From Candidatus Competibacteraceae bacterium (GTDB lineage: Bacteria > Pseudomonadota > Gammaproteobacteria > Competibacterales > Competibacteraceae), in contig RXIV01000005.1 in the NCBI GenBank assembly GCA_003989085.1, positions 62,001 through 126,000 of the forward strand: DNA of 64,000 nt, given 5' to 3'. A model generated the notes under the pieces. That model was given only the letters and a program-made list of their open reading frames with translations. It was not told the origin of the DNA and ran no database searches. Position numbers and translations under genes: made by a program. Shown here piece by piece: positions 14,814-59,335 of the stretch (position 1 is the stretch's first letter; each line of letters begins with the position of its first letter).

Positions 14814-15395
14814 ATGAATAGATCTCTTGAAAATGCCAAGAAAACGACCAGTCTGGCGAGCCAGATACAAGCGGCTACCGGCATTGCACTCCATCACTGC
14901 TACCAGTGCGGCAAGTGCGCGGCGGGTTGTCCGGTAGCGGACACCATGGACCTCCCGTCCTGTCAGGTTTTGCGGTTATTACAGTACGAATCCCCTGAGT
15001 TTGATCGGCAAGTTCTCCAAAGCGAGGCCATCTGGCTTTGCCTATCCTGCGAAACTTGCCATACCCGTTGCCCTCAGGATATCGGCACGCCCAAGGTCAT
15101 GAACTTCCTGCGTGGGGAAGCCATGCGCCTGAGGCTAGCTCATCCCCGGAGCAAGGATACGCAGGCATTCCATCACGCTTTTCTGGGCTCTGTCGGGCGA
15201 CACGGCCGCCTGTACGAAATCGGCATGTTGATGGGCTACAAGCTGCGCACCGGACACCTGCTCAAGGACATGGCGCTCGGTTCCAAACTGCACGAAAAAG
15301 GCAAGCTGAATTTGCTTCCGCACGCCATCGAGGACAAGGCGGCGCTGAAACGCCTGTTCAAGCAGACGCTCAATAACCCCGATAGCAAGGAGTAG
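14814..15395 (+). CDS. hdrC: Heterodisulfide reductase-type subunit C (two [4Fe-4S])
   Basis: 193 residues with two CxxCxxCxxxC(P) motifs: Cys29/32/35/39 and Cys76/79/82/86. HdrC passes electrons between HdrA and the catalytic HdrB. GGGAAAG precedes the ATG at 14814. It opens a seven-gene run with 4-45 nt gaps. In Hdr-Flx systems (first described in Desulfovibrio) this module reduces a disulfide substrate, probably DsrC-like, with electrons from bifurcated NADH. Confidence 0.88.
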   Translation: MNRSLENAKKTTSLASQIQAATGIALHHCYQCGKCAAGCPVADTMDLPSCQVLRLLQYESPEFDRQVLQSEAIWLCLSCETCHTRCPQDIGTPKVMNFLRGEAMRLRLAHPRSKDTQAFHHAFLGSVGRHGRLYEIGMLMGYKLRTGHLLKDMALGSKLHEKGKLNLLPHAIEDKAALKRLFKQTLNNPDSKE

Positions 15396-15399
15396 CGCC

Positions 15400-16290
15400 A
15401 TGCGTATTGGCTACTATCCGGGTTGTTCGCTGAAAAGCTCTGCCCGCGAATATGAAGAATCGGTGCGGGCGTTGTGCGCGGCGCTCGATCTGGAACTGGT
15501 GGAAATTCCCGACTGGAACTGCTGCGGCGCGTCCTCGGCTCATGTGATGAGCGCGGATCTGGCCCTGGGGCTGCGTACCCGCAACCTGGCGCAGGCGGAA
15601 GCCGCCGGTCTGGACGAAGTGCTGACGCCCTGCGCGGCCTGCTTCAGTCATCTGGCCGAAGCCCGCATGGAACTCGCGGACAATCCCAACAAGCGGCAGG
15701 AAGTCGCTGACTTCATCGGCTTGCCTTATAGCGGCCGGGTCCGGGTGCTGAACGTCCTGGCGGTGCTGGATCGCTATCGGGACCGGATCGCCGCGAAGGT
15801 CAAAAACCCCTTTCGATATAAAGTCGCCTGCTATTACGGCTGTCTGCTGGTGCGCCCGCCGGAAGTGGTCCAGTTCGACCGTCCGGAGAATCCGCAAAGC
15901 ATGGATCGGCTGCTCGAAGCGGTGGGCGCCAAACCGATTCCCTGGGCCTGCAAAACCGAATGCTGCGGCGCGTCCTTTTCCGTCACCCGCACCGACGTGG
16001 TAGCTAATCTGAGCGGCCGCATCGTCGCCGACGCCGTGAAGCGCAATGCCGCCGCTATCGTGGTGGCTTGCCCGATGTGCCAATCCAACCTCGACCTGCG
16101 TCGCCCGGAAATCAACCAGCAGTTGGAACAGGAACACGGTATCCCGGTGCTGTACATTACCCAGGCGCTGGGACTGGCCTTGGGGATCGACCCGCAACAA
16201 CTCGGTTTGCAGCGGCATCTGGTGCCGGTCGAACTGCCGGAACCAGAACCCGAAGTCGTCACCGCTGACGACGATGATGATGATGATTGA
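15400..16290 (+). CDS. hdrB: Heterodisulfide reductase-type subunit B (CCG domains)
   Basis: 296 residues with two cysteine-rich CCG domains: Cys9...CCG (41-43)...CxxC, and a second set CYYGC...CCGAS...CPMC. In methanogen HdrB these bind two noncubane [4Fe-4S] clusters that cleave the disulfide, so this is the likely catalytic subunit. An unusual acidic C-terminal tail ends in seven consecutive Asp. The gene begins 4 nt after hdrC. Confidence 0.9.
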   Translation: MRIGYYPGCSLKSSAREYEESVRALCAALDLELVEIPDWNCCGASSAHVMSADLALGLRTRNLAQAEAAGLDEVLTPCAACFSHLAEARMELADNPNKRQEVADFIGLPYSGRVRVLNVLAVLDRYRDRIAAKVKNPFRYKVACYYGCLLVRPPEVVQFDRPENPQSMDRLLEAVGAKPIPWACKTECCGASFSVTRTDVVANLSGRIVADAVKRNAAAIVVACPMCQSNLDLRRPEINQQLEQEHGIPVLYITQALGLALGIDPQQLGLQRHLVPVELPEPEPEVVTADDDDDDD

Positions 16291-16301
16291 GGGGAATCGC
16301 C

Positions 16302-18293
16302 ATGTCACGAGTGGGAGTTTTTGTTTGCCATTGCGGCGAAAATATCGGTTCGACGGTGGACTGCCCCGAAGTCGCAGAGCGCTGCAAGCAAATGCCAGGC
16401 GTGGTTCACGCCGAGGATTACAAATACCTGTGTTCCAATCCCGGCCAGAACAAGATCAAGCAGGCGATTAAGGACCACCAGTTGGAAGGGGTGGTGGTAG
16501 CCGCCTGTTCGCCGCGCATGCACGAACCGACCTTTCGCCGGGCGGTGACCGATGCCGGGATGAACGCCTATCTGTGCGAAGTGGCGAATCTGCGTGAACA
16601 CTGCTCCTGGGTGCATGAAGAGGCGGACAGCACCACCGAAAAGGCGGTCGATCTGGTGCGGCTGCAACTGGAGAAGGTGAAGCGCAACAAGCCGTTGCAG
16701 CCGATTGAGGTGCCCATCACCAAGACGGCGCTGGTCATCGGCGGCGGCGTGGCCGGCATTCAGGCGGCGCTCGACATCGCCGATTCGGGCCATAAAGTCA
16801 TTCTGGTGGAGCGGTCGCCTGCGCTCGGCGGCCACATGGCGCAGTTGTCGGAGACCTTCCCGACTCTGGATTGCTCGCAATGCATCCTGACGCCCCGGAT
16901 GGTGGACGTGTCCCGCCATCCCAACATCACCCTGATGACCTATTCCGAAGTGGAGCATCTGGACGGCTTCATCGGCAACTTCAAGGCCACCATCCGCAAG
17001 CGCGCCCGCAAGATTGACGAAGAACTGTGCACCGGTTGCGGCGAATGCCTGCAAAAATGCCCTTCCAAGGACATCAGCGACGGCTTCAATGAGGGGCTAA
17101 CCACGCGCCGGGCGATTTATGTGCCTTTCACCCAGGCGGTGCCCAACATTCCGGTGATCGATGTCGAGAACTGCCGACACTATCAAAAGAAGAAATGCGA
17201 CCGCTGCGTGAAAGCGTGTCCCACCAAGGCGATCAGCTTCAATCAGCAGGACGAATTGATCCATGTGGACGTGGGCGCCATCGTAGTGGCGACCGGCTAC
17301 AAGGTGATGAGCACCGAGAAGTTCCCGGAGTACGGTTATGGCACCTACCCGGATGTCATCACCGGCTTGCAGTTCGAGCGTTACGCCTCTGCTTCCGGCC
17401 CCACCCAGGGCGTCATCAAGCGCCCCAGCGACGGCAAGGAACCGGAAACCGTGGTGTTCATCGCCTGCTCCGGCAGTCGCGACGCCGCCAAGGGCGTCAA
17501 GTATTGCAGCAAGATTTGCTGCATGTACACGGCCAAGCACGCGATGCTGCTCAAGCACAAGAACCACAACAGCAAGGCGTATGTGTTCTACATGGACATC
17601 CGCGCCGCCGGCAAAAATTACGACGAATTCGTGCGGCGGGCGATTGAGGAAGACGGCGTCAAGTACATCCGGGGCCGGGTTTCCCGCGTTTACGAAGAAG
17701 ACGGCAAGCTGGTCGTCAAGGGCGCGGACACGCTGCTGGGTGGCCGTCCGGTTGAAATCAAGGCCGATCTGGTGGTGCTGGCCACGGCCTCGCTGCCCAA
17801 CGACGGTCAGAGCGAACTGGCTCGCAAGCTTCATGTCGGCTGCGACGAATACGGCTTCCTGGCCGAGGCGCACCCCAAGCTGAAGCCGGTGGAAACCAAT
17901 ACCGCCGGCATTTATCTGGCCGGCGCCTGTCAGTCGCCGCGCGACATCCCGGAGACGGTGGCCCAGGCCAGCGCCGCCGCCGCCAAGGTCGCCGCGCTGT
18001 TGAGCCGTAGCCACCTGACCCGCGAGCCGATAGTCGCCGAAGTCAACCGCCGGCCCGCGCCGCTGCACAGCGATTGCACCGGTTGCTTCCTGTGCGAAAG
18101 CGCCTGTCCGTACCGGGCGATTGGTCAGGAGGAAATCCTGGATCGCGATGGGATAGTGATCAAAACCATCGCCAAAATTAATCCCGGCTTGTGCCAGGGT
18201 TGCGGCACCTGCGTGGCGACCTGCCGCACCAAGGCCATCGATCTGCACGGTTTTTCCAACGAGCAGATTTTCGCCGAAATCATGAGCCTGTAG
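16302..18293 (+). CDS. hdrA: Heterodisulfide reductase-type subunit A (flavin, multiple [4Fe-4S])
   Basis: 663 residues. In order: N-terminal Cys domain (CHCGENIG; CSPRMHEP), FAD-binding Rossmann motif GGGVAGIQAA, a ferredoxin pair (CTGCGECLQKC; CDRCVKAC), the flavin reductase body, and a C-terminal ferredoxin pair (CTGCFLCESAC; CQGCGTCVATC). HdrA carries the bifurcating FAD in characterised complexes. The ATG at 16302 follows GAGGGG by a normal spacing. This is the hub of the operon. Confidence 0.93.
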   Translation: MSRVGVFVCHCGENIGSTVDCPEVAERCKQMPGVVHAEDYKYLCSNPGQNKIKQAIKDHQLEGVVVAACSPRMHEPTFRRAVTDAGMNAYLCEVANLREHCSWVHEEADSTTEKAVDLVRLQLEKVKRNKPLQPIEVPITKTALVIGGGVAGIQAALDIADSGHKVILVERSPALGGHMAQLSETFPTLDCSQCILTPRMVDVSRHPNITLMTYSEVEHLDGFIGNFKATIRKRARKIDEELCTGCGECLQKCPSKDISDGFNEGLTTRRAIYVPFTQAVPNIPVIDVENCRHYQKKKCDRCVKACPTKAISFNQQDELIHVDVGAIVVATGYKVMSTEKFPEYGYGTYPDVITGLQFERYASASGPTQGVIKRPSDGKEPETVVFIACSGSRDAAKGVKYCSKICCMYTAKHAMLLKHKNHNSKAYVFYMDIRAAGKNYDEFVRRAIEEDGVKYIRGRVSRVYEEDGKLVVKGADTLLGGRPVEIKADLVVLATASLPNDGQSELARKLHVGCDEYGFLAEAHPKLKPVETNTAGIYLAGACQSPRDIPETVAQASAAAAKVAALLSRSHLTREPIVAEVNRRPAPLHSDCTGCFLCESACPYRAIGQEEILDRDGIVIKTIAKINPGLCQGCGTCVATCRTKAIDLHGFSNEQIFAEIMSL

Positions 18294-18308
18294 CGGAGTG
18301 AGTGTCCG

Positions 18309-18758
18309 ATGGCTACCAAAGTAGCGACTCAATTTGAACCCAAGATCACCGCGTTTGTGTGCAACTGGTGTACGTATGCCGGCGCGGATCTGACCGGCAC
18401 CAGCCGCACCAAGTACCAGTCCAATGTCCGGGTCATTCGCCTGCCCTGCACCGGGCGGGTGGACTTCATGCTGATCCAGAAGGCGTTTGCACGCGGCTCC
18501 GACGGCATCATCGTTTCCGGCTGTCATCCCAACGATTGCCACTACACCAGCGGCAATTACCACGCCCGGCGGCGCTGGATGGTATTCACCGAGCTGATGA
18601 ATTTCATCGGTGCGGACATGCGGCGCATCACCTTCTCGTGGGTATCAGCGGCGGAAGGCGCGAAATGGGCCGCACTGGTGGACGAAGTGACCAACACGGT
18701 TCGCGAACTGGGGCCGTACACCGAATACCAGCGTCTAATCGATGCCGGCGTCGCCTGA
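18309..18758 (+). CDS. flxD: MvhD/FlxD-type [2Fe-2S] electron-transfer subunit
   Basis: 149 residues. The CNWCTYAGAD start (Cys18, Cys21) and later LPCTGR and GCHPNDCHY cysteines are the hallmark of the MvhD family, which links the NADH- or H2-oxidising module to HdrA through a [2Fe-2S] cluster. It directly follows hdrA (15 nt). The NADH-side genes that follow, rather than hydrogenase genes, make it FlxD-like. Confidence 0.88.
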   Translation: MATKVATQFEPKITAFVCNWCTYAGADLTGTSRTKYQSNVRVIRLPCTGRVDFMLIQKAFARGSDGIIVSGCHPNDCHYTSGNYHARRRWMVFTELMNFIGADMRRITFSWVSAAEGAKWAALVDEVTNTVRELGPYTEYQRLIDAGVA

Positions 18759-18781
18759 AAGCCTGCAAAAGGAGCCGCAAC

Positions 18782-19585
18782 GTGGAAGTCTTACGAAACA
18801 AAGCGCAAGACCTGCTTGCTCAAGGCCAGGCGCAGATCGTCATTGGTTATGAAGCCGGCACCGGCGGCATTCGCCGCCCCAGCTTCGCCCGCACCGCCGC
18901 GGATACCGCCCGGCTGGTGTGGGACGCCGACTGCATCAGCAATCTGGCCGGCTATCTGACCCGCCCGGAAATCAAGCGGATGGGTAAAACCGCCATCGTC
19001 GCCAATGCCTCGACGCTGCGCGCCCTGCTGCAATTGACCGCCGAGCGCCAGTTGGCGGAAGACGCGGTGCTGGCTCTGGCCGTGGCGGAGGACGGCACGG
19101 TCACCGAGCTGGCCACGGCCCAGGCGGTAACGGATCACGTCGCTGCCTTGCCCGATGCCCTGTCCGCCGCCGACCGGGAGCAGATGAACCTGTTGGCGAG
19201 CATGTCCCGCGAGGAACGCTGGGTGTACTGGGAAAAGGAATTGCAGCGCTGCATCAAGTGCTACGCCTGCCGCAGTTCCTGCCCGATGTGCTATTGCGGC
19301 ACCTGCACCATGGACTGCAATAAGCCGCAGTGGGTGCCGGTTCCCAGCCACGCGCTGGGCAATCTGGAATATCACACCGTGCGTGCCATGCATCTGGCGG
19401 GCCGCTGCGTGGAATGCGGCGAATGCGGGCGGGCCTGTCCGGTCGGGATTCCGATCCATCTGCTGACCTGTTTCGCGGAAGAAAGCGTCCACCAGCAATT
19501 CGGCCAGAAGGCCGGAGCCAGCGCCAAGCTGGACTACGCGCTGGGCACCTTCCGGCCCGATGACAAAGAATCCTTTATCCGCTAG
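18782..19585 (+). CDS. flxC: FlxC-like double [4Fe-4S] subunit
   Basis: 267 residues. About 150 residues without recognised motifs precede two ferredoxin-type motifs: CIKCYACRSSC, extended by CYCGTC, and CVECGECGRAC. The GTG at 18782 has AGGAG upstream and is preferred over a long in-frame extension that reads antisense-like sequence of flxD. Position between flxD and flxB matches the Flx gene order. Confidence 0.8.
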   Translation: MEVLRNKAQDLLAQGQAQIVIGYEAGTGGIRRPSFARTAADTARLVWDADCISNLAGYLTRPEIKRMGKTAIVANASTLRALLQLTAERQLAEDAVLALAVAEDGTVTELATAQAVTDHVAALPDALSAADREQMNLLASMSREERWVYWEKELQRCIKCYACRSSCPMCYCGTCTMDCNKPQWVPVPSHALGNLEYHTVRAMHLAGRCVECGECGRACPVGIPIHLLTCFAEESVHQQFGQKAGASAKLDYALGTFRPDDKESFIR

Positions 19586-19593
19586 GGGTCGCC

Positions 19594-20604
19594 ATGACAA
19601 CCATACTCAAGATTTCTGCAGAATCGCTGGAGGCGCTGTTTGCCGCGTTGGGCGACAGCGGTCGGCGCATCCTGGGGCCGACCGAAACCGATGGCCGGGT
19701 CGATCTGGGAGAAGTGCAAACCCCCGCGCAAGTCGCGGACGCTCATCTGCAACTGACGTTGAGCGCCAAGGAGGCGGTTTTCCCCCGGGTGGAACGCCTG
19801 CTGAGCTATAAAACCATGCCCGGCAAGGTGGAACTGAATGATGCCGAACCCGATATTCAGCCAACCGTGCTGTTCGGGCTGCGGCCGTGCGAGGCGTCGG
19901 GCTTTGGTTCGCTGGATTCGGTGTTCAACTGGGATTCTCGCGACAAGTTTTTCAACGCCCGCGTGGAACAGATGACGGTGGTCGGGCTGAGTTGCACCCA
20001 GGCTGACGACGCCTGCTTCTGCACCTCGGTCGGCGGCGGTCCCGGCTCCACCAAGGGGAGTGACCTGTTGCTCACGCCGCTGGCGGATGGCCACTATCTG
20101 GTGGAAATTCTTACCGCCAAGGGCGAGGAGATCCAGGCGTTGGCTCCGCATCTGTTCCAGCCGGCCGTCAACGAGGACAAGGAAGCTCTGCTGGCCAAGC
20201 TGGAACCGCACTTTGATCGCGAAGCCCTGACCGCCAAACTGCCGGGACTGTTCACCAGCGAACTGTGGGCGGAGCAAAGTCTGCGCTGCGTCGGCTGCGG
20301 CGCATGCGCCTTCGTCTGTCCGACCTGCGCCTGCTTCGACATCCAGGAAGAGGCCGATACCAAGGAAGGGCAACGCTTGCGCTGCTGGGATTCCTGCGGT
20401 CTGCGCCAATTCACCCTGCACGCTTCGGGACACAACCCGCGCAGCGCCCAGGCGGAGCGCTGGCGGCAGCGGATTTACCACAAGTTCAGCTATTTCCCGC
20501 AGCGCTTCGGCGAGGCCATGTGCGTCGGTTGCGGCAAATGTACGCGGGCCTGTCCGGTGGACATGAACCTGAAAGAACATTTAACCCAGGCGTGCGGGAC
20601 CTAG
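19594..20604 (+). CDS. flxB: FlxB-like [4Fe-4S] subunit (sulfhydrogenase beta/AsrA-like)
   Basis: 336 residues. The central region has the LRPCEASG segment and later two clusters (CVGCGACAFVC plus CACFD; CVGCGKCTRAC) as in NiFe sulfhydrogenase beta and anaerobic sulfite reductase A. It moves electrons from the FlxA flavin to the other FeS subunits. AGGGG precedes the ATG at 19594; flxA follows 2 nt after its stop. Confidence 0.85.
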   Translation: MTTILKISAESLEALFAALGDSGRRILGPTETDGRVDLGEVQTPAQVADAHLQLTLSAKEAVFPRVERLLSYKTMPGKVELNDAEPDIQPTVLFGLRPCEASGFGSLDSVFNWDSRDKFFNARVEQMTVVGLSCTQADDACFCTSVGGGPGSTKGSDLLLTPLADGHYLVEILTAKGEEIQALAPHLFQPAVNEDKEALLAKLEPHFDREALTAKLPGLFTSELWAEQSLRCVGCGACAFVCPTCACFDIQEEADTKEGQRLRCWDSCGLRQFTLHASGHNPRSAQAERWRQRIYHKFSYFPQRFGEAMCVGCGKCTRACPVDMNLKEHLTQACGT

Positions 20605-20606
20605 CG

Positions 20607-21446
20607 ATGGCCGAGCGAAACATTTATCTGCCGTACCTGATGCGGATCGCCAAGATCACCGATGAAGCGCCGGCGGTTAAAACCTTCCGGCTGGAATTTA
20701 TAAATCCCGAAGAGGCGGCCAATTTCGAGTTTCACACCGGCCAGTTCGGCATGTACACTGCCTTCGGCGAGGGCGAAAGCACCTTTTGCATCGCCTCCAG
20801 CCCGACCCGCAAGGGCTACATCGAATGCACCTTCCGGGCGGTCGGGCGGGTGACCAGCGCCCTGGCGACCAAGGAAGAAGGCGATGTCATCGGCTTTCGC
20901 GGCCCGTGCGGCAATCTGTTTCCGCTGGAGCAATGGCGTGGCCGGAACCTGTTGTTCATCGCGGGCGGCATCGCGCTGCCGCCGTTGCGTAGCGTGATCT
21001 GGAATTGCCTGGATCAGCGGGACTGGTTTGAAAAGATCACCGTGGTTTACGGCGCTCGCAGCGTGGCGGATCTGGTCTACAAACACGAGTTGCAGGACTG
21101 GGAAGCACGGCCCGATATCGATCTGGTGGTCACCGTAGACCCCGGCGGCGAAACCGCTGACTGGAAAGGCAAGGTAGGTTTTGTGCCCCATGTCGTCGAG
21201 CAACTCGCGCCGCCGAGCGAGAACACGGTGGCTATTGTCTGTGGCCCGCCCGTCATGATTCGCTTCACCTTGCCTTTGCTGGAAAAGCTGGGTTTTACCC
21301 CGGACTCGGTGTACACCACGCTGGAAAACCGGATGAAGTGCGGACATGGCAAATGCGGGCGCTGTAATACCGGCACCAGCTTTATCTGCAAGGACGGCCC
21401 GGTTTATACCCTCGCGCAACTGCGGGAACTGCCGGCGGAGTATTAG
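20607..21446 (+). CDS. flxA: FlxA-like FAD/NAD(P)-binding subunit
   Basis: 279 residues of ferredoxin-reductase type: FAD-binding barrel with IASSPTRKG, NAD(P)-binding GGIALPPLRS, and a C-terminal four-Cys motif (MKCGHGKCGRC) for a [2Fe-2S] cluster, as in AsrB, HydG and FlxA. It is the NADH entry point. The ATG at 20607 is 2 nt after flxB. Last gene of the operon; a large inverted repeat follows. Confidence 0.88.
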   Translation: MAERNIYLPYLMRIAKITDEAPAVKTFRLEFINPEEAANFEFHTGQFGMYTAFGEGESTFCIASSPTRKGYIECTFRAVGRVTSALATKEEGDVIGFRGPCGNLFPLEQWRGRNLLFIAGGIALPPLRSVIWNCLDQRDWFEKITVVYGARSVADLVYKHELQDWEARPDIDLVVTVDPGGETADWKGKVGFVPHVVEQLAPPSENTVAIVCGPPVMIRFTLPLLEKLGFTPDSVYTTLENRMKCGHGKCGRCNTGTSFICKDGPVYTLAQLRELPAEY

Positions 21447-47907: not shown

Positions 47908-48525
47908 ATGGCCCGAAAGACAAAGGAAGAGGCGGAGCGCACCCGCCAACAGCTAGTCCAAGCAGCTCGTCAGGTGTTCCATGAATGCGGAGTGAGTCGC
48001 ACCTCGCTGGAGAAAATTGCAAAGGTGGCGGGTGTGACGCGCGGTGCCGTTTACTGGCATTTCGCTAACAAGGCGGATTTATTTTTTGCCATGCGGGAAC
48101 AGGTGTCGCTCCCACTGTTGACCCGGCTTTTTAGTTTGTTGCTGGCGGAAGGACTGACTGATCCGCTGGAGGGTATTGAACAGGCGTTGAATGAGTTCTT
48201 TTATGCCTTGGAGGGACGCCCTGAGGTGCGGCAGATTTTTGAAATTATGGTTTCGCGTTGCGAATACGTTGACGAGTTCGCCACGGTACAGGCTGACATC
48301 AGTAAGTCCGCACTAGATTTTCTTGGCAAAATGGAGGTCGCTTACCACCGTGCTCAGGAGCGGGGCACTTTGCGTCATGGGCTGGAACCCCGGATTATCG
48401 CACTGGATACATGGGCTTTTTCTTGTGGGCTTTTTCATAACCTGCTGGTCGGCTGCCCCAATGAGGCATGGCGGCGGCAGATTCCTGAGATCATCGCCGC
48501 CCATATTGCGCTTCGCCGTCGTTAG
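47908..48525 (+). CDS. TetR/AcrR-family transcriptional repressor
   Basis: 205 residues. N-terminal helix-turn-helix (TSLEKIAKVAGVTRGAVYWH, about residues 33-52) and a C-terminal ligand-binding domain of AcrR/TtgR type. Divergent from the RND genes, so it most probably represses them and is released by drugs. Its stop overlaps the stop of convergent murI by 4 nt. Confidence 0.92.
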   Translation: MARKTKEEAERTRQQLVQAARQVFHECGVSRTSLEKIAKVAGVTRGAVYWHFANKADLFFAMREQVSLPLLTRLFSLLLAEGLTDPLEGIEQALNEFFYALEGRPEVRQIFEIMVSRCEYVDEFATVQADISKSALDFLGKMEVAYHRAQERGTLRHGLEPRIIALDTWAFSCGLFHNLLVGCPNEAWRRQIPEIIAAHIALRRR

Positions 48526-49325
48526 AAGGCCAAGGGTAAGGGTTCCAGTGTGATTGTGCGACCGAGTAGTCGGCTGATAACCGGGGCGGTGTGTTCTACA
48601 CAGCCGCTAGTGAAATAGCGTTCACCACTCAGGGCATCGCTGTCAGCTAGTTGGTGAAGTCCTTCAAGGATTCGAGATAGTTGTCTTGATACTGCTGCGC
48701 TCGGATCGATAATCATAACTTTTGGACCAATGATCTGTTTTATCAGCGGTTTGAGAAATGGATAGTGGGTGCAGCCTAGCACAAGAGTGTCAATGTTTTG
48801 AGTGAGTAGTGGTTGGAGGTAGCGATTTAGTAGGGCCTGTGGGCGTGGACCGTTCAGCTCTCCCCTCTCAACGCAATCGGCCAGACCCGGACAGGGCTGT
48901 GCTAGCACTTGTGCTTGTTGGCCATGCCGGTTGAGCAAGTCAGCAAACTTGGCGCTGTCCACGGTCTGTCCAGTCGCCAGGATGCCAATGACCCCGGAGC
49001 GAGTCATTGCGACTGCTGGTTTGACGGCCGGTTCAATGCCGATGATCGGGATACTAAATTGGCGGCGTAAGTCAGCGATGGCCGCTGCTGTGGCCGTATT
49101 GCAGGCCACTACGATCGCCTTTGCACCTTGTTCCAGCAGAAATTGGGTGATGATCGCGGCGCGTTGCGCGATGAAATCTGTCGGTTTGTCGCCGTAGGGC
49201 GCGTGGCCGGAGTCGGCGACGTATAGCAGCGTCTCGTGTGGTAGATCGGCGCGGATTTGCTGGAGCACCGATAAACCGCCAACGCCAGAATCAAAGACCC
49301 CGATTGGGCGATTGTCGCTGTTCAT
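48522..49325 (-). CDS. murI: Glutamate racemase
   Basis: 267 residues. The N-terminal FDSGVGGLSVL segment and the two catalytic Cys (in VACNTATAA and GCTHYPFL) are intact. It makes D-glutamate for peptidoglycan. It marks this stretch as core genome; its 5' side faces the origin-like region. Confidence 0.95.
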   Translation of the reverse strand: MNSDNRPIGVFDSGVGGLSVLQQIRADLPHETLLYVADSGHAPYGDKPTDFIAQRAAIITQFLLEQGAKAIVVACNTATAAAIADLRRQFSIPIIGIEPAVKPAVAMTRSGVIGILATGQTVDSAKFADLLNRHGQQAQVLAQPCPGLADCVERGELNGPRPQALLNRYLQPLLTQNIDTLVLGCTHYPFLKPLIKQIIGPKVMIIDPSAAVSRQLSRILEGLHQLADSDALSGERYFTSGCVEHTAPVISRLLGRTITLEPLPLAF

Positions 49326-49500: not shown

Positions 49501-49537
49501 CGGCAAGTTATCCACAGCTTTTGTGGATAACTTGCCG
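49501..49537. promoter_or_regulatory. Palindrome formed by two perfect DnaA boxes
   Basis: Arms at 49501-49516 and 49522-49537 are perfect 16-bp inverted repeats around a 5-nt centre. Each contains the consensus DnaA box TTATCCACA (plus strand 49508-49516, minus strand 49522-49530). No other perfect box was seen nearby. Two converging high-affinity boxes suggest DnaA recruitment to the origin region. Confidence 0.75.
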
Positions 49538-50180
49538 GGATCGAGCGTCTTTGGTCCCCGGTGAGCTGCTTAAGTGGGAAAGCGGCCCTGAAATTTTGCC
49601 CGATTTCTGCTCTCAATTTCTTCTGGATGAATTGGGAGGATGCGTGTCGTGGTGCCAATCCCTCTAAAACCGTTTCTAGCACCGATTAGAGCCGATTTTT
49701 CTGATTTTTGATATTCTGGTAGCTGTTCGTAAGAAAAACGCCTTAAATAGCCTCTCAATGCGTTTTACGGCAAGCAGAGTAGGTGTTTGTTGTTCGGTCG
49801 GTCTTCCAGCCTTCGGGGTGGGTGGGTGTGGGGTTAATCTTTCAAGTTTGCCGATTGGGTAATTGGGTGAGCTCTGTCATCGGCTGGTTTGCGCTTTCTC
49901 CTGGAAACCGTCTTTTGCTTTGGGTTTCATTTTCAGAAAACCATTTTTTGGGGACTTGTCGGTTTGTTCCTGTGCTTGCTTGTCGCAGAGTGAGTCTGGA
50001 TTGTCCTTGGTGAATGCTCTTTCAGAGCCATGTTGGTAAGGGCTGTGATGTGGCTCCCTGGAATTGCTTTGAGGGGGGTGCTTGGAGCGCAGGATGCTTG
50101 GTTTGGCTGGGCGGTGTTTCGTGGCGGCGCGCGCTGTCGATCAATCTGCAACACAGTCGTTTTCAAGACGTTTTAAACGA

Positions 50181-50237
50181 CGATCTTGCGTTTAGAAAAA
50201 ACGATCTTTGGTTTAAAGGGAAACGATCTTTTGTTTA
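50181..50237 (+). repeat. Three AT-rich direct repeats, candidate DNA unwinding element
   Basis: The word CGATCTTnnGTTTA occurs three times without mismatch at 50181-50194, 50202-50215 and 50224-50237, spaced 21 and 22 bp. Each has a GATC (Dam) site. AT-rich 13-mer-like repeats beside iterons are the standard melting site of iteron plasmid origins. Confidence 0.65.
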
Positions 50238-50327
50238 AGCAAAGACAATGTGTGGTCGAAATCGCCAGTTTAGATAAAAACAATATCTTTCAGTATCTTG
50301 AAACAAGATTTGCAGGTTTGAAAAATG

Positions 50328-50636
50328 TAATGTCCCCGTTTATGGGATTTTTTGGAAATGTAATGTCCCCGTTTATGGGATTTTTTGGAAATGTAATGTC
50401 CCCGTTTATGGGATGAAATTTTCGTAATGTCCCCGTTTATGGGATTTTTTGGATCGTAATGTCCCCGTTTATGGGATGAAATTTTCGTAATGTCCCCGTT
50501 TATGGGATTTTTGGTCCCTGTCCAACCAATATCGACGCGAAAGATTGTATAATCAGCTAGTTGAGATCGACTCTCCGTCTTAGGGCCACCTCAGCCCAGT
50601 CTGGAGCTATTTCGGAAATGTCCCCGTTTATGGGAT
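50328..50636 (+). repeat. Iteron array, seven full copies
   Basis: The core TGTCCCCGTTTATGGGAT preceded by TAA occurs with starts at 50328, 50361, 50394, 50425, 50457 and 50488, spaced 31-33 bp, about three helical turns. A seventh copy lies at 50616-50636 (AAA instead of TAA before the core). All are in the same orientation and end 60 bp before rep. Spacers are of two alternating types (TTTTTTGGA- or GAAATTTTC-containing). Confidence 0.9.
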
Positions 50637-50640
50637 GAAT

Positions 50641-50690
50641 GAAATGTCCCCATAAGCACGGTTGACCAAGGGGACATTTCTGTTAGGCTA
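50641..50690 (+). promoter_or_regulatory. rep promoter overlapped by inverted half-iterons
   Basis: GAAATGTCCCC (50641-50651) and its exact complement GGGGACATTTC (50670-50680) form an 11-bp inverted repeat of the iteron half. TTGACC (50662-50667) and a weak TAGGCT (50684-50689) make a possible promoter across it. In iteron plasmids, Rep dimers bind such inverted half-sites to repress their own gene. The ATG at 50697 would leave almost no leader. Confidence 0.55.
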
Positions 50691-50696
50691 ACAAAC

Positions 50697-52106
50697 ATGG
50701 CCCGCCAAAAAGACAAACGCGAGGATGGGGATGCCGCCCGCAAGGTTGGAACGGCTGATCTGACAGATCAGAACCTGAAAAAGCATATTGCCGCCATCCA
50801 TATCAGTAACCGGCTGACGCTCACCCAGCGCAAGGCGTCTAACGTGCTGCTTTACAATGCCTACGATAGCCTGCTGACGGCGCGGGTTCACAGCATTCGG
50901 GTCAAAGACCTAGCTGAAGCCATCGGCTTTAACACCCATAACCTTGACCCGCTCAAGGAAGCGCTCAAGACATTGGCGCGCACCGTGCTGGAATGGAATA
51001 TCCTCGATGAAAGCGGCGCCCAAGAAGAATGGGGCGCTACTACTCTGTTGGCTCAGGCGGTCATCAAAGGCGGGTTTTGCATCTATGCTTACAGCCCGGA
51101 TCTCTGTGAAAAGCTCTACCGGCCCGAGATTTACGCTTTGCTTAATCTCAGCATCCAGCGCAAGTTCAGTAGCGGTTATGCCCTGGCTCTCTACGAAAAC
51201 TGTCTGCGCTATCGGCGGGTCGGCACCACTGGCTGGATCGCCGTAGAGAATCTGAAGCGTCTGCTGGGGATTGGTGATACGGATGTCTACTATCAGGATT
51301 TTCGCAAGTTTAATGACAAGATCATTAAACCAGCAGTGAGACAGGTTAACGAGACTTCGGATCTGAGTCTGGAAGTTGATTACCAGCGCGACTCCCGGCG
51401 GGTGGCAGCGGTGCGGTTCCGGGTCAGCGATAACCCGCAGATGCTGCTGTTTGCCCAGCGGCAGGCGGCTTTGACCGCCGCCCTGACTGGAGAGGCGGCG
51501 ACCGTTAAGCCGGAGTGTTCCGGGGCGCGATTGGCCCGCTTGCGTGAAAAACTGGCCCTGTTCGGCTTGAGCGCTCGCCAAATTCGCGTCGCGTTGAATG
51601 GCCGTGATCCAGCTTACATCGAAGATAATATCGCGGTTGTCGAGCGCGACCTGATTGCCGGCAAGGTTCATAATTTGCCGGCTTATCTGCTGGGCGCCTT
51701 GCGTGAAGACTACCGGACGCCAGTCCAGAGTGAACCGGCTCCGGTTTCAGTAGCGGGTGGCGTCCACCCCGTTCGAGTGCCAGCAACACGGCTGGATGAT
51801 CTGCGCACCCGGTTCCTGACCCTGCGGCTGCAAGTGGCGCTGGAGCGGTTAAGCCCGGTGGAACGGGAGCTGCTGGAGCGCGATTATGTGGCTCGGTTGG
51901 GGCAGGGCGATGGTTTCGAGGCGCGACTCCTGCTCGGACTGTACCGCAAGAGCGGTTTAAACAGCCGGATGGTCGAGAGCCACTTTCGGGCCTTTGCTCG
52001 GGATCGGTTGGTTGGAGATTTAGATGAAACCGAGTTTGCCGCCTATGTTTCTCAACAGGCTGATGAAAGTGGTCCACCGGCGGCGGGTGGCGCTCAATCA
52101 GGATAA
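50697..52106 (+). CDS. RepB-family replication initiator protein
   Basis: 469 residues. The first 260 contain the two winged-helix units of the Rep_3 initiator family: residues about 30-150 (SNRLTLTQRKASNVLLYNAY start) and 150-260 (LSIQRKFSSGYALALYENCL; WIAVENLKRLLGI). The remaining 200 residues are an extra Arg/Leu-rich C-terminal part longer than in small-plasmid Rep proteins. It should bind the iterons upstream and start replication with host DnaA. A weak AGG lies before the ATG. A c-di-GMP gene follows 6 nt after its stop. Confidence 0.88.
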   Translation: MARQKDKREDGDAARKVGTADLTDQNLKKHIAAIHISNRLTLTQRKASNVLLYNAYDSLLTARVHSIRVKDLAEAIGFNTHNLDPLKEALKTLARTVLEWNILDESGAQEEWGATTLLAQAVIKGGFCIYAYSPDLCEKLYRPEIYALLNLSIQRKFSSGYALALYENCLRYRRVGTTGWIAVENLKRLLGIGDTDVYYQDFRKFNDKIIKPAVRQVNETSDLSLEVDYQRDSRRVAAVRFRVSDNPQMLLFAQRQAALTAALTGEAATVKPECSGARLARLREKLALFGLSARQIRVALNGRDPAYIEDNIAVVERDLIAGKVHNLPAYLLGALREDYRTPVQSEPAPVSVAGGVHPVRVPATRLDDLRTRFLTLRLQVALERLSPVERELLERDYVARLGQGDGFEARLLLGLYRKSGLNSRMVESHFRAFARDRLVGDLDETEFAAYVSQQADESGPPAAGGAQSG

Positions 52107-52112
52107 AAGCCG

Positions 52113-53876
52113 ATGAATCAACATGACAAATGCTGTTCTGCCCAGGATTACAGCGGGGTGGTGTGGCGTAGTGTTCTCCGGTGGCTGTGGCGGGCGGCCG
52201 GTGTGGGCTTGGTCTTGCTGATAGGTGTGACGCTCATCAGTATCGGCGAGGTGGAAAGCCAGGCCGCTGGCGGGGAGCCGTCTGGTGCAGCCAGCGTCCG
52301 TCCCGGCTGGTTTGAGTCGGGCCGACTTGGGATACTGGCCGGGGTGGCGCTGCTATTGTTAGGGGCGGCGGGCGGAGGCACGGCCATTGTCTTTGAACAG
52401 CGGCGCAGGATGCGGGCGGCGCAGGATGCGTTTCAGGTTCGTATCGGGGCGTTGCAAGATCAGCAGCTGGTGCTGGAAACGGAACTGGGCCAGCAGCGTG
52501 AACTGGCAGAAACCCTGCGCGATAGCGAGCAGCGGTTACGCGTACTTCTCCAGCAGCTTCCGGCGGGCATCTTCCTGACTGATATCCAGGGCGAGATTCG
52601 CTACGTCAATGATCGCTGGCAATTGCTGGCTGGATTGACCGCTGAACAGGCCGCCGGAACCGGATGGATCCAAGCCCTGCATCCTGACGACCGCAACTTG
52701 ATGCTGGAAACTTGGCGGCAAGCCATTCAGAACTGCACCGAGTTTGTCGCCGATCACCGGTTCCGAACCCCATCGGGCCGGGTGAAATGGCTCAATACCC
52801 GCGCTACGCCGCTCATGGATCGTGCTGGACGGATCACGGGTTATCTAGGGGTCCACGCCGACATTGCCGATCTCAAGCAAACGGAAGAAACGCTGCGAGC
52901 CAGCGAAGCCCGGTTCCGCAGTTACTTTGAGTTACCGCTGATCGGCATTGCCCTGACCGGCGCGGACAAACGCTGGTGGGAGGTCAACGACCGGCTGTGC
53001 GAGATGCTGGGTTACCGGCGGGCGCAACTGCTGAGCATGACCTGGGCAGAACTGACTCACCCTGATGACCTGGGCATCGATGTGATGCAGTTTGAACGGG
53101 TCATCGGCCGCCGTATCGAAGGTTATTCGGTCGACAAGCGCTTCATTCGCCAGGATGGCGCGTTGCTTTACACTGGAGTGTCAACCCGCTGTGTGCGGCG
53201 CACCAACGGTGCGGTCGATTATTTTGTGATGGTGATCCAGGACATCACTGAGCGCAAGGAGGCCGAAGATCGTGTCCAGCATCTGGCGCATTACGATCCT
53301 CTGACCGGGTTGCCGAACCGGGTGTTGCTGGGTGATCGCCTGCAACAGGCAGTAGCGCGGGCCGGCCGCGAGCACGCCCAGACCGGGGTGATGATGGTGG
53401 ATATCGACCGGTTCAAGCTGATTAATGATGCTTTAGGTCACGCGGTCGGTGACCGCCTGCTTCAGGAGGTTGCAACGCGCCTGCGCGGATGTGCTCGCCA
53501 GTGCGATACTATTTCTCGCCAAGGTGGCGATGAGTTTGCGGTGTTGCTCCCCGATCTGGACAGCGGTGATGAGGCGACCCGTATTGCTCAGCGAATGCTG
53601 GAGTTGATGGCGCAGCCGATCCGGCTGGACGATCAGGAGCTGAGTGTCACCTGTAGCATTGGGATCAGCCTGTATCCCCGTGATGGCCGCACCGGGGATC
53701 TGTTGCTGAAAAATGCCGACATCGCCCTGTACCGGGCTAAGGATATGGGGCGTAATAACTACCAGTTCTACCTGTCCGGGGCGACCATGCTGTCCCGCGA
53801 GAGGCTCAATCTGGAAACCAGCCTGCGCCATGCCGTCGAACGGCAGCAGCTGGAAGTGTACTACCAGCCAAAATAG
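52113..53876 (+). CDS. PAS-PAS-GGDEF protein, cut by an in-frame amber codon
   Basis: 587 residues before a TAG at 53874-53876. Two N-terminal hydrophobic segments (about 20-45, 70-92), a coiled stretch, PAS 1 (about 140-260), PAS 2 (about 268-385) and a GGDEF domain with intact GGDEF motif and inhibitory-site region. The amber replaces the residue after YYQPK, the first motif of the EAL domain, and the rest of EAL continues in the same frame downstream. As it stands the product is a diguanylate cyclase without EAL. The gene begins 6 nt after rep. Confidence 0.85.
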   Translation: MNQHDKCCSAQDYSGVVWRSVLRWLWRAAGVGLVLLIGVTLISIGEVESQAAGGEPSGAASVRPGWFESGRLGILAGVALLLLGAAGGGTAIVFEQRRRMRAAQDAFQVRIGALQDQQLVLETELGQQRELAETLRDSEQRLRVLLQQLPAGIFLTDIQGEIRYVNDRWQLLAGLTAEQAAGTGWIQALHPDDRNLMLETWRQAIQNCTEFVADHRFRTPSGRVKWLNTRATPLMDRAGRITGYLGVHADIADLKQTEETLRASEARFRSYFELPLIGIALTGADKRWWEVNDRLCEMLGYRRAQLLSMTWAELTHPDDLGIDVMQFERVIGRRIEGYSVDKRFIRQDGALLYTGVSTRCVRRTNGAVDYFVMVIQDITERKEAEDRVQHLAHYDPLTGLPNRVLLGDRLQQAVARAGREHAQTGVMMVDIDRFKLINDALGHAVGDRLLQEVATRLRGCARQCDTISRQGGDEFAVLLPDLDSGDEATRIAQRMLELMAQPIRLDDQELSVTCSIGISLYPRDGRTGDLLLKNADIALYRAKDMGRNNYQFYLSGATMLSRERLNLETSLRHAVERQQLEVYYQPK

Positions 53877-54578
53877 GATTTTCGGGCTGGCGCGGTCACT
53901 GGAGCCGAGGCGCTGGTGCGCTGGAATCATCCTAAGCTAGGTTTGTTGTCGCCGGCTCGGTTCATTCCTATCGCTGAGGATAGCGGGCTGGTGCTGCCGA
54001 TGGGTGAATGGGTGCTGCGGGCCGCCATCCGTGAGATCGGCGAGTTACACCGGAGCGGCTTTCCGGGGCTGCGGATCGCGGTCAACTTGTCGGGTCGCCA
54101 ATTCCAGCAGGTGGAGCTGGCTGATCTGGTGGCTCAGGCGCTGACCGAAAACGGTTTCGATCCGGTTTGTCTGGAGCTGGAGCTGACCGAAAGCACCTTG
54201 ATGCATCATACCGACAATAATCTGGCAGTGCTGAATGCGCTTAAGGCAACCGGTGCCCGGATCGCCATTGATGATTTTGGCACTGGTTATTCGTCGCTCA
54301 GCTATTTGCAGCAGTTTCCAGTCGATGTACTCAAGATCGACCGAACATTCGTCATGGACTTGCCGGACGCTGCCGGCAGCGTCGCTATTGTAGACGCCAT
54401 TGTCACCCTGGCGCACGGGCTGGGGCTGGAAGTTGTGGCGGAAGGGGTGGAAACGCCCGAGCAACTGGCGTTTCTTCATACCCACGGCTGTGATGAAGGC
54501 CAAGGTTATTATTTCGGACGGCCTACGTCGCTGGCTGAGTTTCGGGCACTGCTGGAACAGGCCAGGACGGTGGAGTGA
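53877..54578 (+). pseudogene. EAL domain, 3' part of the interrupted GGDEF-EAL gene
   Basis: In the same frame as the preceding gene and beginning right after its TAG. It reads a full EAL domain: GAEALVRW, ELTEST, IDDFGTGYSS, LKIDRTF, AEGVET and QGYYFGRP. No decay except the one codon. A GTG at 53916 could start a separate 220-residue product, but it would lack the first EAL strand. Read through, the whole gene (52113-54578) would encode 821 residues. Confidence 0.75.
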
Positions 54579-57370: not shown

Positions 57371-59335
57371 TTAAATTTTGATTGGGGTGACGATCATCTG
57401 AATTTCGCGCAGGTGCAGACGGCGCTGCATGGCGATGGCGGTGTGGTTGTGCAACCACGAGATCAGCCAGCTTTCGTTATCGAAAATCAGCTTGCTGCTT
57501 AGACAAACGCTGTTGGGGTAATCCTCAGTCACTTGCGCCGCCAGCTTTTCCAGCTCGGTTTCCACATCGGTGCCATAAGCTGCATAGGAGGTGGCCGCCC
57601 AGTTCTCGCTGTGGCAATAGTTGACGTAATAGCGCAGCGAGTTTTCGATCTGATATTGCAGCGACCGCAATGCGCCTTTGCCGCCGTAACTTTCGGCGTC
57701 CACCTCGCCGACGCTGATGAAGATAAAATTCCGGAAATGGCCGGGAAACAGTTCATTCAGCCACTTGAGGGCGTACATACCCAGGCCGCGATTCTTGCCG
57801 ACCAGAAAGATCGCCGTCGGCTGCTCCGGGTCCAGCAGTGGTTCGGGCAAGTCTTCATCCCAGTGGGCGCGCGGCGCATAGAGCGCGTCCACAGTGCGCA
57901 GTTGCTGGCGGACCCGCTCATAATGGCGCCGGATCAGAGCGCAAAGCGCAATGAGCAGGCCGGTAATCAGCAGGGTGAGCCAGCCGCCTTCAGTGAATTT
58001 TTCCACCACCGTCACGATCAGGATGCCGCCGGTCACCGCGAAGCCGATAAAGGAGAGCAGCAGGCGCAATTTCCAGCCATCCACGTCATAGCGGCTGGTC
58101 CACCAGTGTCGGCACAACCCCAGCAGCGACAGCGAAAAGGTGATGAATACATTGATGCTGTACAGCACCACCAATACCGACACGTCGCCATGAGTCCAGG
58201 TCAGAATGCCCAGCGCTCCGGCGCCCATCAGGAAAATGCCGTTTTGGGTGACCAGCCGCCCGGATAGGTTGCGAAACTGGCGGGGAATCCAGGAATCCAC
58301 CGCCATGTTGGCCAGTACGGTCGGCCCGCCCAGGAAACCGGTATTGGCGGCGACAAACAGCAATCCAGCCTCCAGCAGCAGCACCACCGCCAGCAACCCG
58401 TGACTGATCGCTGGGTTGAGTTGCCAGCTGTTGATGATGGCGCCGAAGGTGACTGCGTTCAGGGTTTGATGAGAAACGGGCTGGACGTGCCAGAGCAGAT
58501 ACAACAGGATGACCCCGCCGGCGGTGAAGCTGAGCGAGCCGGCCATATACAACATGGTGTAGCCCCCGGTTTTGACTCGGGGTTCGCTGAGCATGTTGAC
58601 GTTGTTGGAGACCGCTTCCAGGCCGGTGTAGGTGCCGCCGCCCAATGAGTAGGCCCGCAGAAACAGGGCGGCGGCGAATGCCCAGCCCATTTGGTCGGTC
58701 AGTTGTCGGGTTTCGTTGAGGGTGTCCGGGATCAGGTGCGGCAGGCCGTCGGAATGGGCAACGACGCCATAAATAATCAGGAACACGTGGGTCAGGAAGA
58801 AGCCGAGAAAGATCGGCAGCAGCACCCGGATTGATTCTTTCATCCCGCGCAGGTTGAGGATGATCAAAATAATGATCAACGTCACCTGGGCCAGTAACTT
58901 GTAGGGTTGGGCGCCGGGCGGCAGCAGGCTGAACAGGGCGTCGCCACAGGCGGCGATGGAAATGGCGATGGTCAGGACGTAATCAACCAGCAGCGCCGAT
59001 CCCGATATCAGCCCAGCGCGGGGGCCGAGCAACTGGGTGGCGACCTTGTAGCCGCCGCCGCCGGACGGGAATAATTCGATTACCTGATTGTAGGCGAGGG
59101 CGATAATGAACACGGTCAGGAAGGTGGCGGCAGCCAGATAGAGACCAAAGTGGGTGTGCTGGCCCAGCGCTACAAAGGCTTCCTCCGGGCCGTAACAGGC
59201 AGACGACAGACCGTCGGCGCCTAAGCCGATCCAGGCAAGAAAAGCGACCAGGGCGATGTTATGACGGGTATCGGGATGGAGCGGGTTGTGCGGTTTGCCA
59301 ATCACCGCCTCCCTGAGTTTGTCAACAAATGGCAT
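57371..59335 (-). CDS. APC-superfamily permease, KimA-like K+ importer
   Basis: 654 residues with about 12 membrane helices and a C-terminal cytoplasmic domain of about 170 residues. The GADGLSSACYGPEEAF segment near residue 38 corresponds to the YGPEE signature of KimA (YdaO) K+/H+ symporters rather than amino acid permeases. Adjacent RCK channel gene supports a K+ role. An amino acid substrate cannot be excluded. Confidence 0.8.
   Translation of the reverse strand: MPFVDKLREAVIGKPHNPLHPDTRHNIALVAFLAWIGLGADGLSSACYGPEEAFVALGQHTHFGLYLAAATFLTVFIIALAYNQVIELFPSGGGGYKVATQLLGPRAGLISGSALLVDYVLTIAISIAACGDALFSLLPPGAQPYKLLAQVTLIIILIILNLRGMKESIRVLLPIFLGFFLTHVFLIIYGVVAHSDGLPHLIPDTLNETRQLTDQMGWAFAAALFLRAYSLGGGTYTGLEAVSNNVNMLSEPRVKTGGYTMLYMAGSLSFTAGGVILLYLLWHVQPVSHQTLNAVTFGAIINSWQLNPAISHGLLAVVLLLEAGLLFVAANTGFLGGPTVLANMAVDSWIPRQFRNLSGRLVTQNGIFLMGAGALGILTWTHGDVSVLVVLYSINVFITFSLSLLGLCRHWWTSRYDVDGWKLRLLLSFIGFAVTGGILIVTVVEKFTEGGWLTLLITGLLIALCALIRRHYERVRQQLRTVDALYAPRAHWDEDLPEPLLDPEQPTAIFLVGKNRGLGMYALKWLNELFPGHFRNFIFISVGEVDAESYGGKGALRSLQYQIENSLRYYVNYCHSENWAATSYAAYGTDVETELEKLAAQVTEDYPNSVCLSSKLIFDNESWLISWLHNHTAIAMQRRLHLREIQMIVTPIKI

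Follow-up and report, generated by a model that had tools for sequence, protein, structure and literature searches.

The segment between murI and a c-di-GMP gene of the Competibacteraceae genome G000 is very probably the site (ori2) where replication starts on a second replicon of plasmid descent, a chromid. Most Competibacteraceae would have inherited this replicon from their common ancestor. G000 (3.5 Mb, 30 contigs) is the source genome of the window, which is the whole stretch of 64,000 nucleotides that was analysed (positions 62001-126000 of C5, a contig of 251 kb). Unless a contig is named, positions are given within the window. The closest named relatives of G000 are Ca. Contendobacter and other Competibacteraceae. 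The comparison set includes 39 genomes of this family, which are related to one another and some of which are incomplete.

On the basis of its sequence, the segment is assigned to the iteron-type (Rep_3) origins: it carries a putative initiator with two winged-helix domains (WH1 and WH2), tandem iterons, AT-rich repeats and a putative operator inverted repeat. Six iterons (50329-50508, + strand; core AATGTCCCCGTTTATGGGAT; spacing 31-33 bp) are putative initiator binding sites. A seventh, isolated iteron (50617-50636, + strand) is found 128 bp beyond the sixth, and seven exact copies of AATGTCCCCGTTTATGGGAT are thus present across 50329-50636. The iteron array is far beyond chance. In the 39 family genomes, an 18-nt iteron core was found to be confined to arrays, apart from a few isolated matches that deviate at one or two positions. 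When reversed as a control, the pattern gave zero matches. No copy was found outside the array in G000 when up to two mismatches were allowed; no iteron-like chromosomal trigger site was therefore found, and a chromosomal crtS-like iteron site was rejected at this threshold. Three AT-rich repeats of about 21 bp (CGATCTT..GTTTA; 50181-50238, + strand), in a stretch that is 60-70% AT, are the likely DNA unwinding element. An IHF-type site, AATCAGCTAGTTG (consensus WATCARNNNNTTR; 50551-50563, + strand), lies between the six-iteron array and the last iteron. The inverted repeat ATGTCCCC-N18-GGGGACAT (50644-50677), which consists of an iteron half-site, overlaps the rep promoter and is the likely autorepression operator; the promoter-like elements before rep are a -35 TTGACC (50662-50667) and a -10 TAGGCT (50684-50689). 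Between murI and the origin, two perfect DnaA boxes (TTATCCACA / TGTGGATAA; 49508-49516 and 49522-49530) form an inverted pair inside 16-bp perfect inverted arms (49501-49537). No match was obtained in an Rfam scan of the 64-kb window.

An earlier sequence-only reading had described an iteron origin with DnaA boxes, AT-rich repeats, seven iterons, an inverted repeat and a long-tailed initiator, and every one of these is confirmed in the sequence. Two corrections apply: the DnaA-box pair is located about 800 bp upstream of the iterons and is nearly private (found only in the window and its closest relative, locus L057, not in other genera), and the IHF-type site had been overlooked. A single DnaA box is found near rep in L060, L066 and L070; most other loci have no strict box.

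The Rep_3 initiator (469 aa; 50697-52106, + strand) includes winged-helix domains 1 and 2 and a C-terminal extension of about 220 aa. Residues 27-242 match PF01051 (E 5e-16) and PF21205 (E 3e-11), both above cut-off, and the C-terminal 220 or so residues match no Pfam family. The AlphaFold model (mean pLDDT 57.9) suggests that the extension is helical; fold searches from this structure were rejected because the model is too poor. Solved RepE-type structures give no significant sequence match (E 0.18). Among 72,556 plasmid records, the best matches of the initiator have 35-43% identity over 70-93% of the protein, and none reaches 60% identity. A search of 50,697 phage records gave no match, and a phage origin was rejected.

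By analogy with iteron plasmids and with Vibrio ori2 (general knowledge; PMC6090056), Rep_3 monomers would bind the iterons, and the AT-rich repeats upstream would be melted by Rep, aided by IHF bending and probably by DnaA. The host helicase would be loaded after these repeats open. Rep dimers would repress the rep promoter at the operator inverted repeat. Daughter replicons would be segregated by dedicated ParA2-ParB2 proteins acting on TATKCCACGTGGMATA (parS2); the main chromosome would depend on DnaA-oriC and on another ParB with canonical parS.

Rep orthologues (67-90% identity) are found in about 21 of the 39 family genomes, 21 being the count at 71% identity or more; outside Competibacteraceae, relatives of the initiator are far weaker. 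The gene order rep, PAS-GGDEF-EAL gene, hydrolase gene, 654-aa gene is found in most loci of sufficient length, and the 5′ side is variable. The PAS-GGDEF-EAL c-di-GMP gene (52113-54578, + strand) is the constant neighbour of the initiator across Competibacteraceae; it is a single open frame of about 700-920 aa in most relatives and is split in G000 by an in-frame stop (53874-53876). The conserved 654-aa gene (57371-59335, - strand), which has no NCBIfam match, belongs to the syntenic block downstream of the initiator. The iteron core is near-invariant in most family genomes that retain the window-type initiator, in intergenic DNA that is unalignable by eye. Iteron spacing in the family is near 22 bp or 30-33 bp, i.e. 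two or three helical turns. The isolated iteron is retained in orthologous loci, several of which end within the array (contig ends or gaps). GTTTAAA-type AT-rich repeats are found at the equivalent position in all 11 orthologous loci that reach that far, and an IHF-type site, always on the same strand, in nine other loci. The near-invariant iterons, the retained AT-rich repeats and the IHF-type site indicate strong selection on a working origin. Some copies have unusual features. G031 has two initiator copies with iterons (on G031:C71 and G031:C127), each 74-75% identical to that of the window, perhaps a strain mixture. The initiator is in two pieces in G033 (G033:C104), and in G024 (G024:C54) its matched frame is interrupted by a single TGA; these interruptions correspond either to sequencing error or to decay.

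Genes linked to the origin belong to a closed pool. Nine stretches from eight genomes, carrying a window-type initiator, a swapped initiator (see below) or an empty site, were mapped by best match against a sampled 1.6 Mb or so of the 3.5 Mb of G000. Of 144 orthologues, 127 map to C5 and C14, versus 19% expected from the share of the sampled sequence that these contigs represent; C5 alone is the set defined beforehand, C14 having been joined to the pool after the hits were seen. Gene order is thoroughly shuffled, and 50 of the 54 order breaks lead elsewhere within the C5+C14 pool. Shuffling confined to the pool is as predicted by a separate replicon. Some pool genes of other genera map instead to 22-46 kb of G000 contig C6, which by eye carries dnaB, glmU and gltX; this exception could result either from gene exchange between replicons or from a misjoin. 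No tRNA gene is found on C5 or on any Rep-linked stretch scanned, and C14 has one, at 50.5 kb. The content of C5 is, by eye, mostly accessory (potassium, nitrate, molybdenum cofactor, hydrogenase accessory, efflux). The pool also includes, at 14814-21446 of the window, genes that the sequence-only reading had named as HdrABC-type and associated redox genes. At the end of C5 (about 239-250.6 kb; L015-L016), a CRISPR-Cas-like locus was seen by eye in the ORF list, on the basis of its proteins and of short ORFs that derive from repeats.

The sequence-only reading had placed the origin in what looked like core genome and had offered three explanations: a chromid with a plasmid-derived origin, a chromosome that itself uses the iteron origin, or an integrated plasmid without partition genes. 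It had proposed as checks a search for dnaA elsewhere, a search for parAB, GC skew and synteny in relatives. The core-genome impression was a misreading: accessory or metabolic functions predominate among the linked genes, although these include the sole murI, and C5 is devoid of tRNA genes. The search for dnaA was successful: an intact dnaA-dnaN-recF-gyrB / rnpA-yidC-mnmE region of ordinary layout is found on contig C2, with four canonical-parS-like sites (C2:248, 253, 312 and 315 kb), all within 41 kb of dnaA. Neither C5 nor the initiator-linked stretches have any such site. Given this normal dnaA region, the iteron origin is not the sole candidate origin of the genome and is probably not that of the main chromosome, and the window locus is not assigned to the DnaA-oriC chromosome origins. 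GC skew is weak. Its minimum on C5 lies 9.6 kb from the iterons, but the G024 contig has no sign change at the origin; skew was therefore set aside as an origin test. It is highly improbable that the main chromosome initiates at the iteron origin and that dnaA-oriC is vestigial: the C5 skew minimum near the origin would fit, but the dnaA operon is intact with canonical-parS-like sites nearby, and C5 lacks both these sites and tRNA genes.

The search for parAB revealed a plasmid-type pair, ParA2 and ParB2, encoded on C5 just outside the window, 73 kb from the origin. With these genes and five parS-like palindromes on C5, and with the array and initiator found family-wide, the option of an integrated plasmid devoid of partition genes is not supported. 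The synteny check gave a positive answer as well, as the rep-GGDEF-EAL block and the array recur across the family, and the chromid is the option that the evidence favours. ParA2 (402 aa) has a weak MerR-type HTH match near its N-terminus. Twenty-four genomes, from eight genera, encode it at 87-100% identity, and G006 does so at 77%; in five genomes (G000, G001, G010, G024 and G031) it is encoded on the same contig as Rep. A repABC replicon was rejected, the initiator being a Rep_3 protein and parAB2 lying 73 kb away on C5.

When palindromes shared within the pool were sought, TATGCCACGTGGCATA / TATTCCACGTGGAATA emerged. C5 carries all five copies of parS2 (TATKCCACGTGGMATA, at most one mismatch) present in the 3.5 Mb of G000, and two of these copies immediately adjoin parB2. 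C5 represents 7% of G000, and the probability of this confinement is about 2e-6, or 4e-4 if the copies are taken as three clusters. These values are partly circular, the motif itself having come from palindromes that the pool has in common; the independent part of the test comprises the other genomes and the 1.9 Mb of G000 outside the sample. The reversed control gave no match in G000 and one match per strand in a single family genome. Among the 39 genomes, 24 have both parS2 and ParA2, 9 have neither and 6 are discordant (P 8e-5, a guide only, as the genomes are related and some are incomplete). Rep, ParA2 and parS2 are all missing from G009 and G016. They are also missing from G003 (same genus, rated 100% complete), which has pool genes (C34/L097, C77/L098) and in which a ParB search (E <= 1e-8) found none; replicon fusion or missing contigs are possible explanations. 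The closed gene pool and the confinement of parS2 argue for a physically separate replicon.

The window-type initiator and its iterons are missing from the five genomes of clade g8 (G017, G022, G026, G037 and G038). In G022, G026 and G017, moaA directly adjoins the GGDEF-EAL gene, with nothing between them. All five encode another, unrelated Rep_3 initiator, 84-91% identical to the G026 copy and 24-27% identical to that of the window. In G022 and G026, this swapped initiator is on a contig that has two parS2 sites and pool genes. Upstream of it, the repeats read by eye in G022 and G038 differ in sequence from the window iterons (AAAGTGGGGGAA). ParA2 is unchanged in the five genomes (89-91%). 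Relatives of the swapped initiator, at roughly 47-67% identity, are found in other family members. A second Rep_3 protein of G000, on contig C19 (L027, 11.8 kb; plasmid-like codon usage), is 25% identical to the window initiator and 47% identical to the g8 ones. It is likely that an ancient chromid with a private centromere sequence is involved, whose entire replication module (initiator and iterons) gave way in one clade to that of a second Rep_3 lineage. This lineage has plasmid-like relatives among Competibacteraceae. The par system and the gene pool would have been retained.

These data also bear on an ancestral fusion, in which the plasmid or chromid joined the main chromosome and the origin, parAB2 and parS2 persist as a second origin and centromere domain of a single chromosome. 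The mixing of C6 genes with the pool and the state of G003, which retains pool genes without origin or par system, would agree with it. It is nevertheless unlikely: 50 of 54 order breaks stay within the pool despite thorough shuffling, parS2 is limited to C5 in G000, and the lost Rep and iterons were replaced by another Rep with other iterons, a replacement that would be superfluous for an origin carried along passively.

The chromid reading is further examined with the Harrison et al. (2010) criteria, in the form in which PMC6090056 presents them: plasmid-type maintenance, chromosome-like composition, core genes and a separate replicon. Replication and maintenance functions are of plasmid type (Rep_3 with iterons, ParAB2 with parS2). 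Nucleotide composition and codon usage are near those of the chromosome: GC is 57.7% for C5 (GC3 0.689) and 58.7% for C2, and codon usage correlates with that of C2 at r = 0.990 for C5 versus 0.914 for the plasmid-like contig C19. The murI gene (48522-49325, - strand), which adjoins the origin, is the sole glutamate racemase gene found in G000. On general knowledge, this gene is assumed to be indispensable in G000. It is likewise on a parS2-bearing contig in G001, G004 and G021; in G009, one of the genomes from which Rep, ParA2 and parS2 are all missing, its contig carries tRNA genes. The single murI on C5 is taken as the core gene that is chromosomal in other species. A large dispensable megaplasmid could account for the mostly accessory content, for the lack of tRNA genes on C5 and for the absence of the replicon from several family members. 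This is improbable for an element that carries the sole murI, has chromosome-like codon usage and is retained across eight genera, and for which no match of at least 60% identity was found in 72,556 plasmid records. A circular Contendobacter chromosome of 3.81 Mb has been published (PMC7966762), and g8 drafts that are at least 98% complete are 4.3-4.7 Mb, which leaves room for a second replicon, different strains being compared.

The putative chromid resembles several known replicons. F RepE- and pPS10-type plasmids have a WH1-WH2 initiator, direct iterons and an inverted operator with a common half-site. The Competibacteraceae origin shares these three features; it differs in the non-significant structure match (E 0.18) and in the C-terminal extension of about 220 aa. 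The best plasmid matches, at 35-43% identity, are RepB/Rep_3 initiators from plasmids of Rhodobacteraceae (for example Ruegeria, Thioclava and Sulfitobacter), which are all below 60% identity and belong to another host class, unlike the family-wide replicon with a core gene found here. Chr2 of Vibrio cholerae (ori2-RctB) is an iteron chromid (PMC6090056). It has in common with the present replicon an iteron array, a DUE, an IHF site, its own parS2 and core genes on a plasmid-derived replicon; it also has a DnaA box, to which the box pair about 800 bp from the iterons in the window may correspond. Unlike RctB, the initiator is here a two-winged-helix Rep_3 protein; the iteron core is 20 bp (12-mers in Vibrio), G000 has no iteron copy outside the array (up to two mismatches), and 73 kb of C5 separate the par genes from the origin. 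The Pseudoalteromonas chromid (RepA-ori2) is also gammaproteobacterial and vertically inherited, with its own parA2B2. Unlike the initiator described here, which belongs to PF01051, its RepA is without significant relatives beyond the genus (PMC7858055), and its par genes adjoin the origin instead of lying 73 kb away.

Most descriptions of gammaproteobacterial chromids concern Vibrionaceae, Pseudoalteromonas and Rahnella (PMC10272867). No report of a Competibacteraceae chromid was found in the open-licence literature searched, in whose available excerpts no link between Competibacter and chromids appears; a gammaproteobacterial secondary-replicon survey and two broader studies do not mention the family. 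As far as these sources extend, a second-chromosome origin of Competibacteraceae has not been reported.

The origin swap amounts to a natural experiment in which the defining features of a second chromosome can be studied. If the proposed exchange is true, chromid origins would be replaceable modules and the par system would be the lasting identity of the replicon. A family-wide chromid in these bacteria, which are of importance for phosphorus removal from wastewater, would alter the approach to closing, binning and interpreting their genomes.
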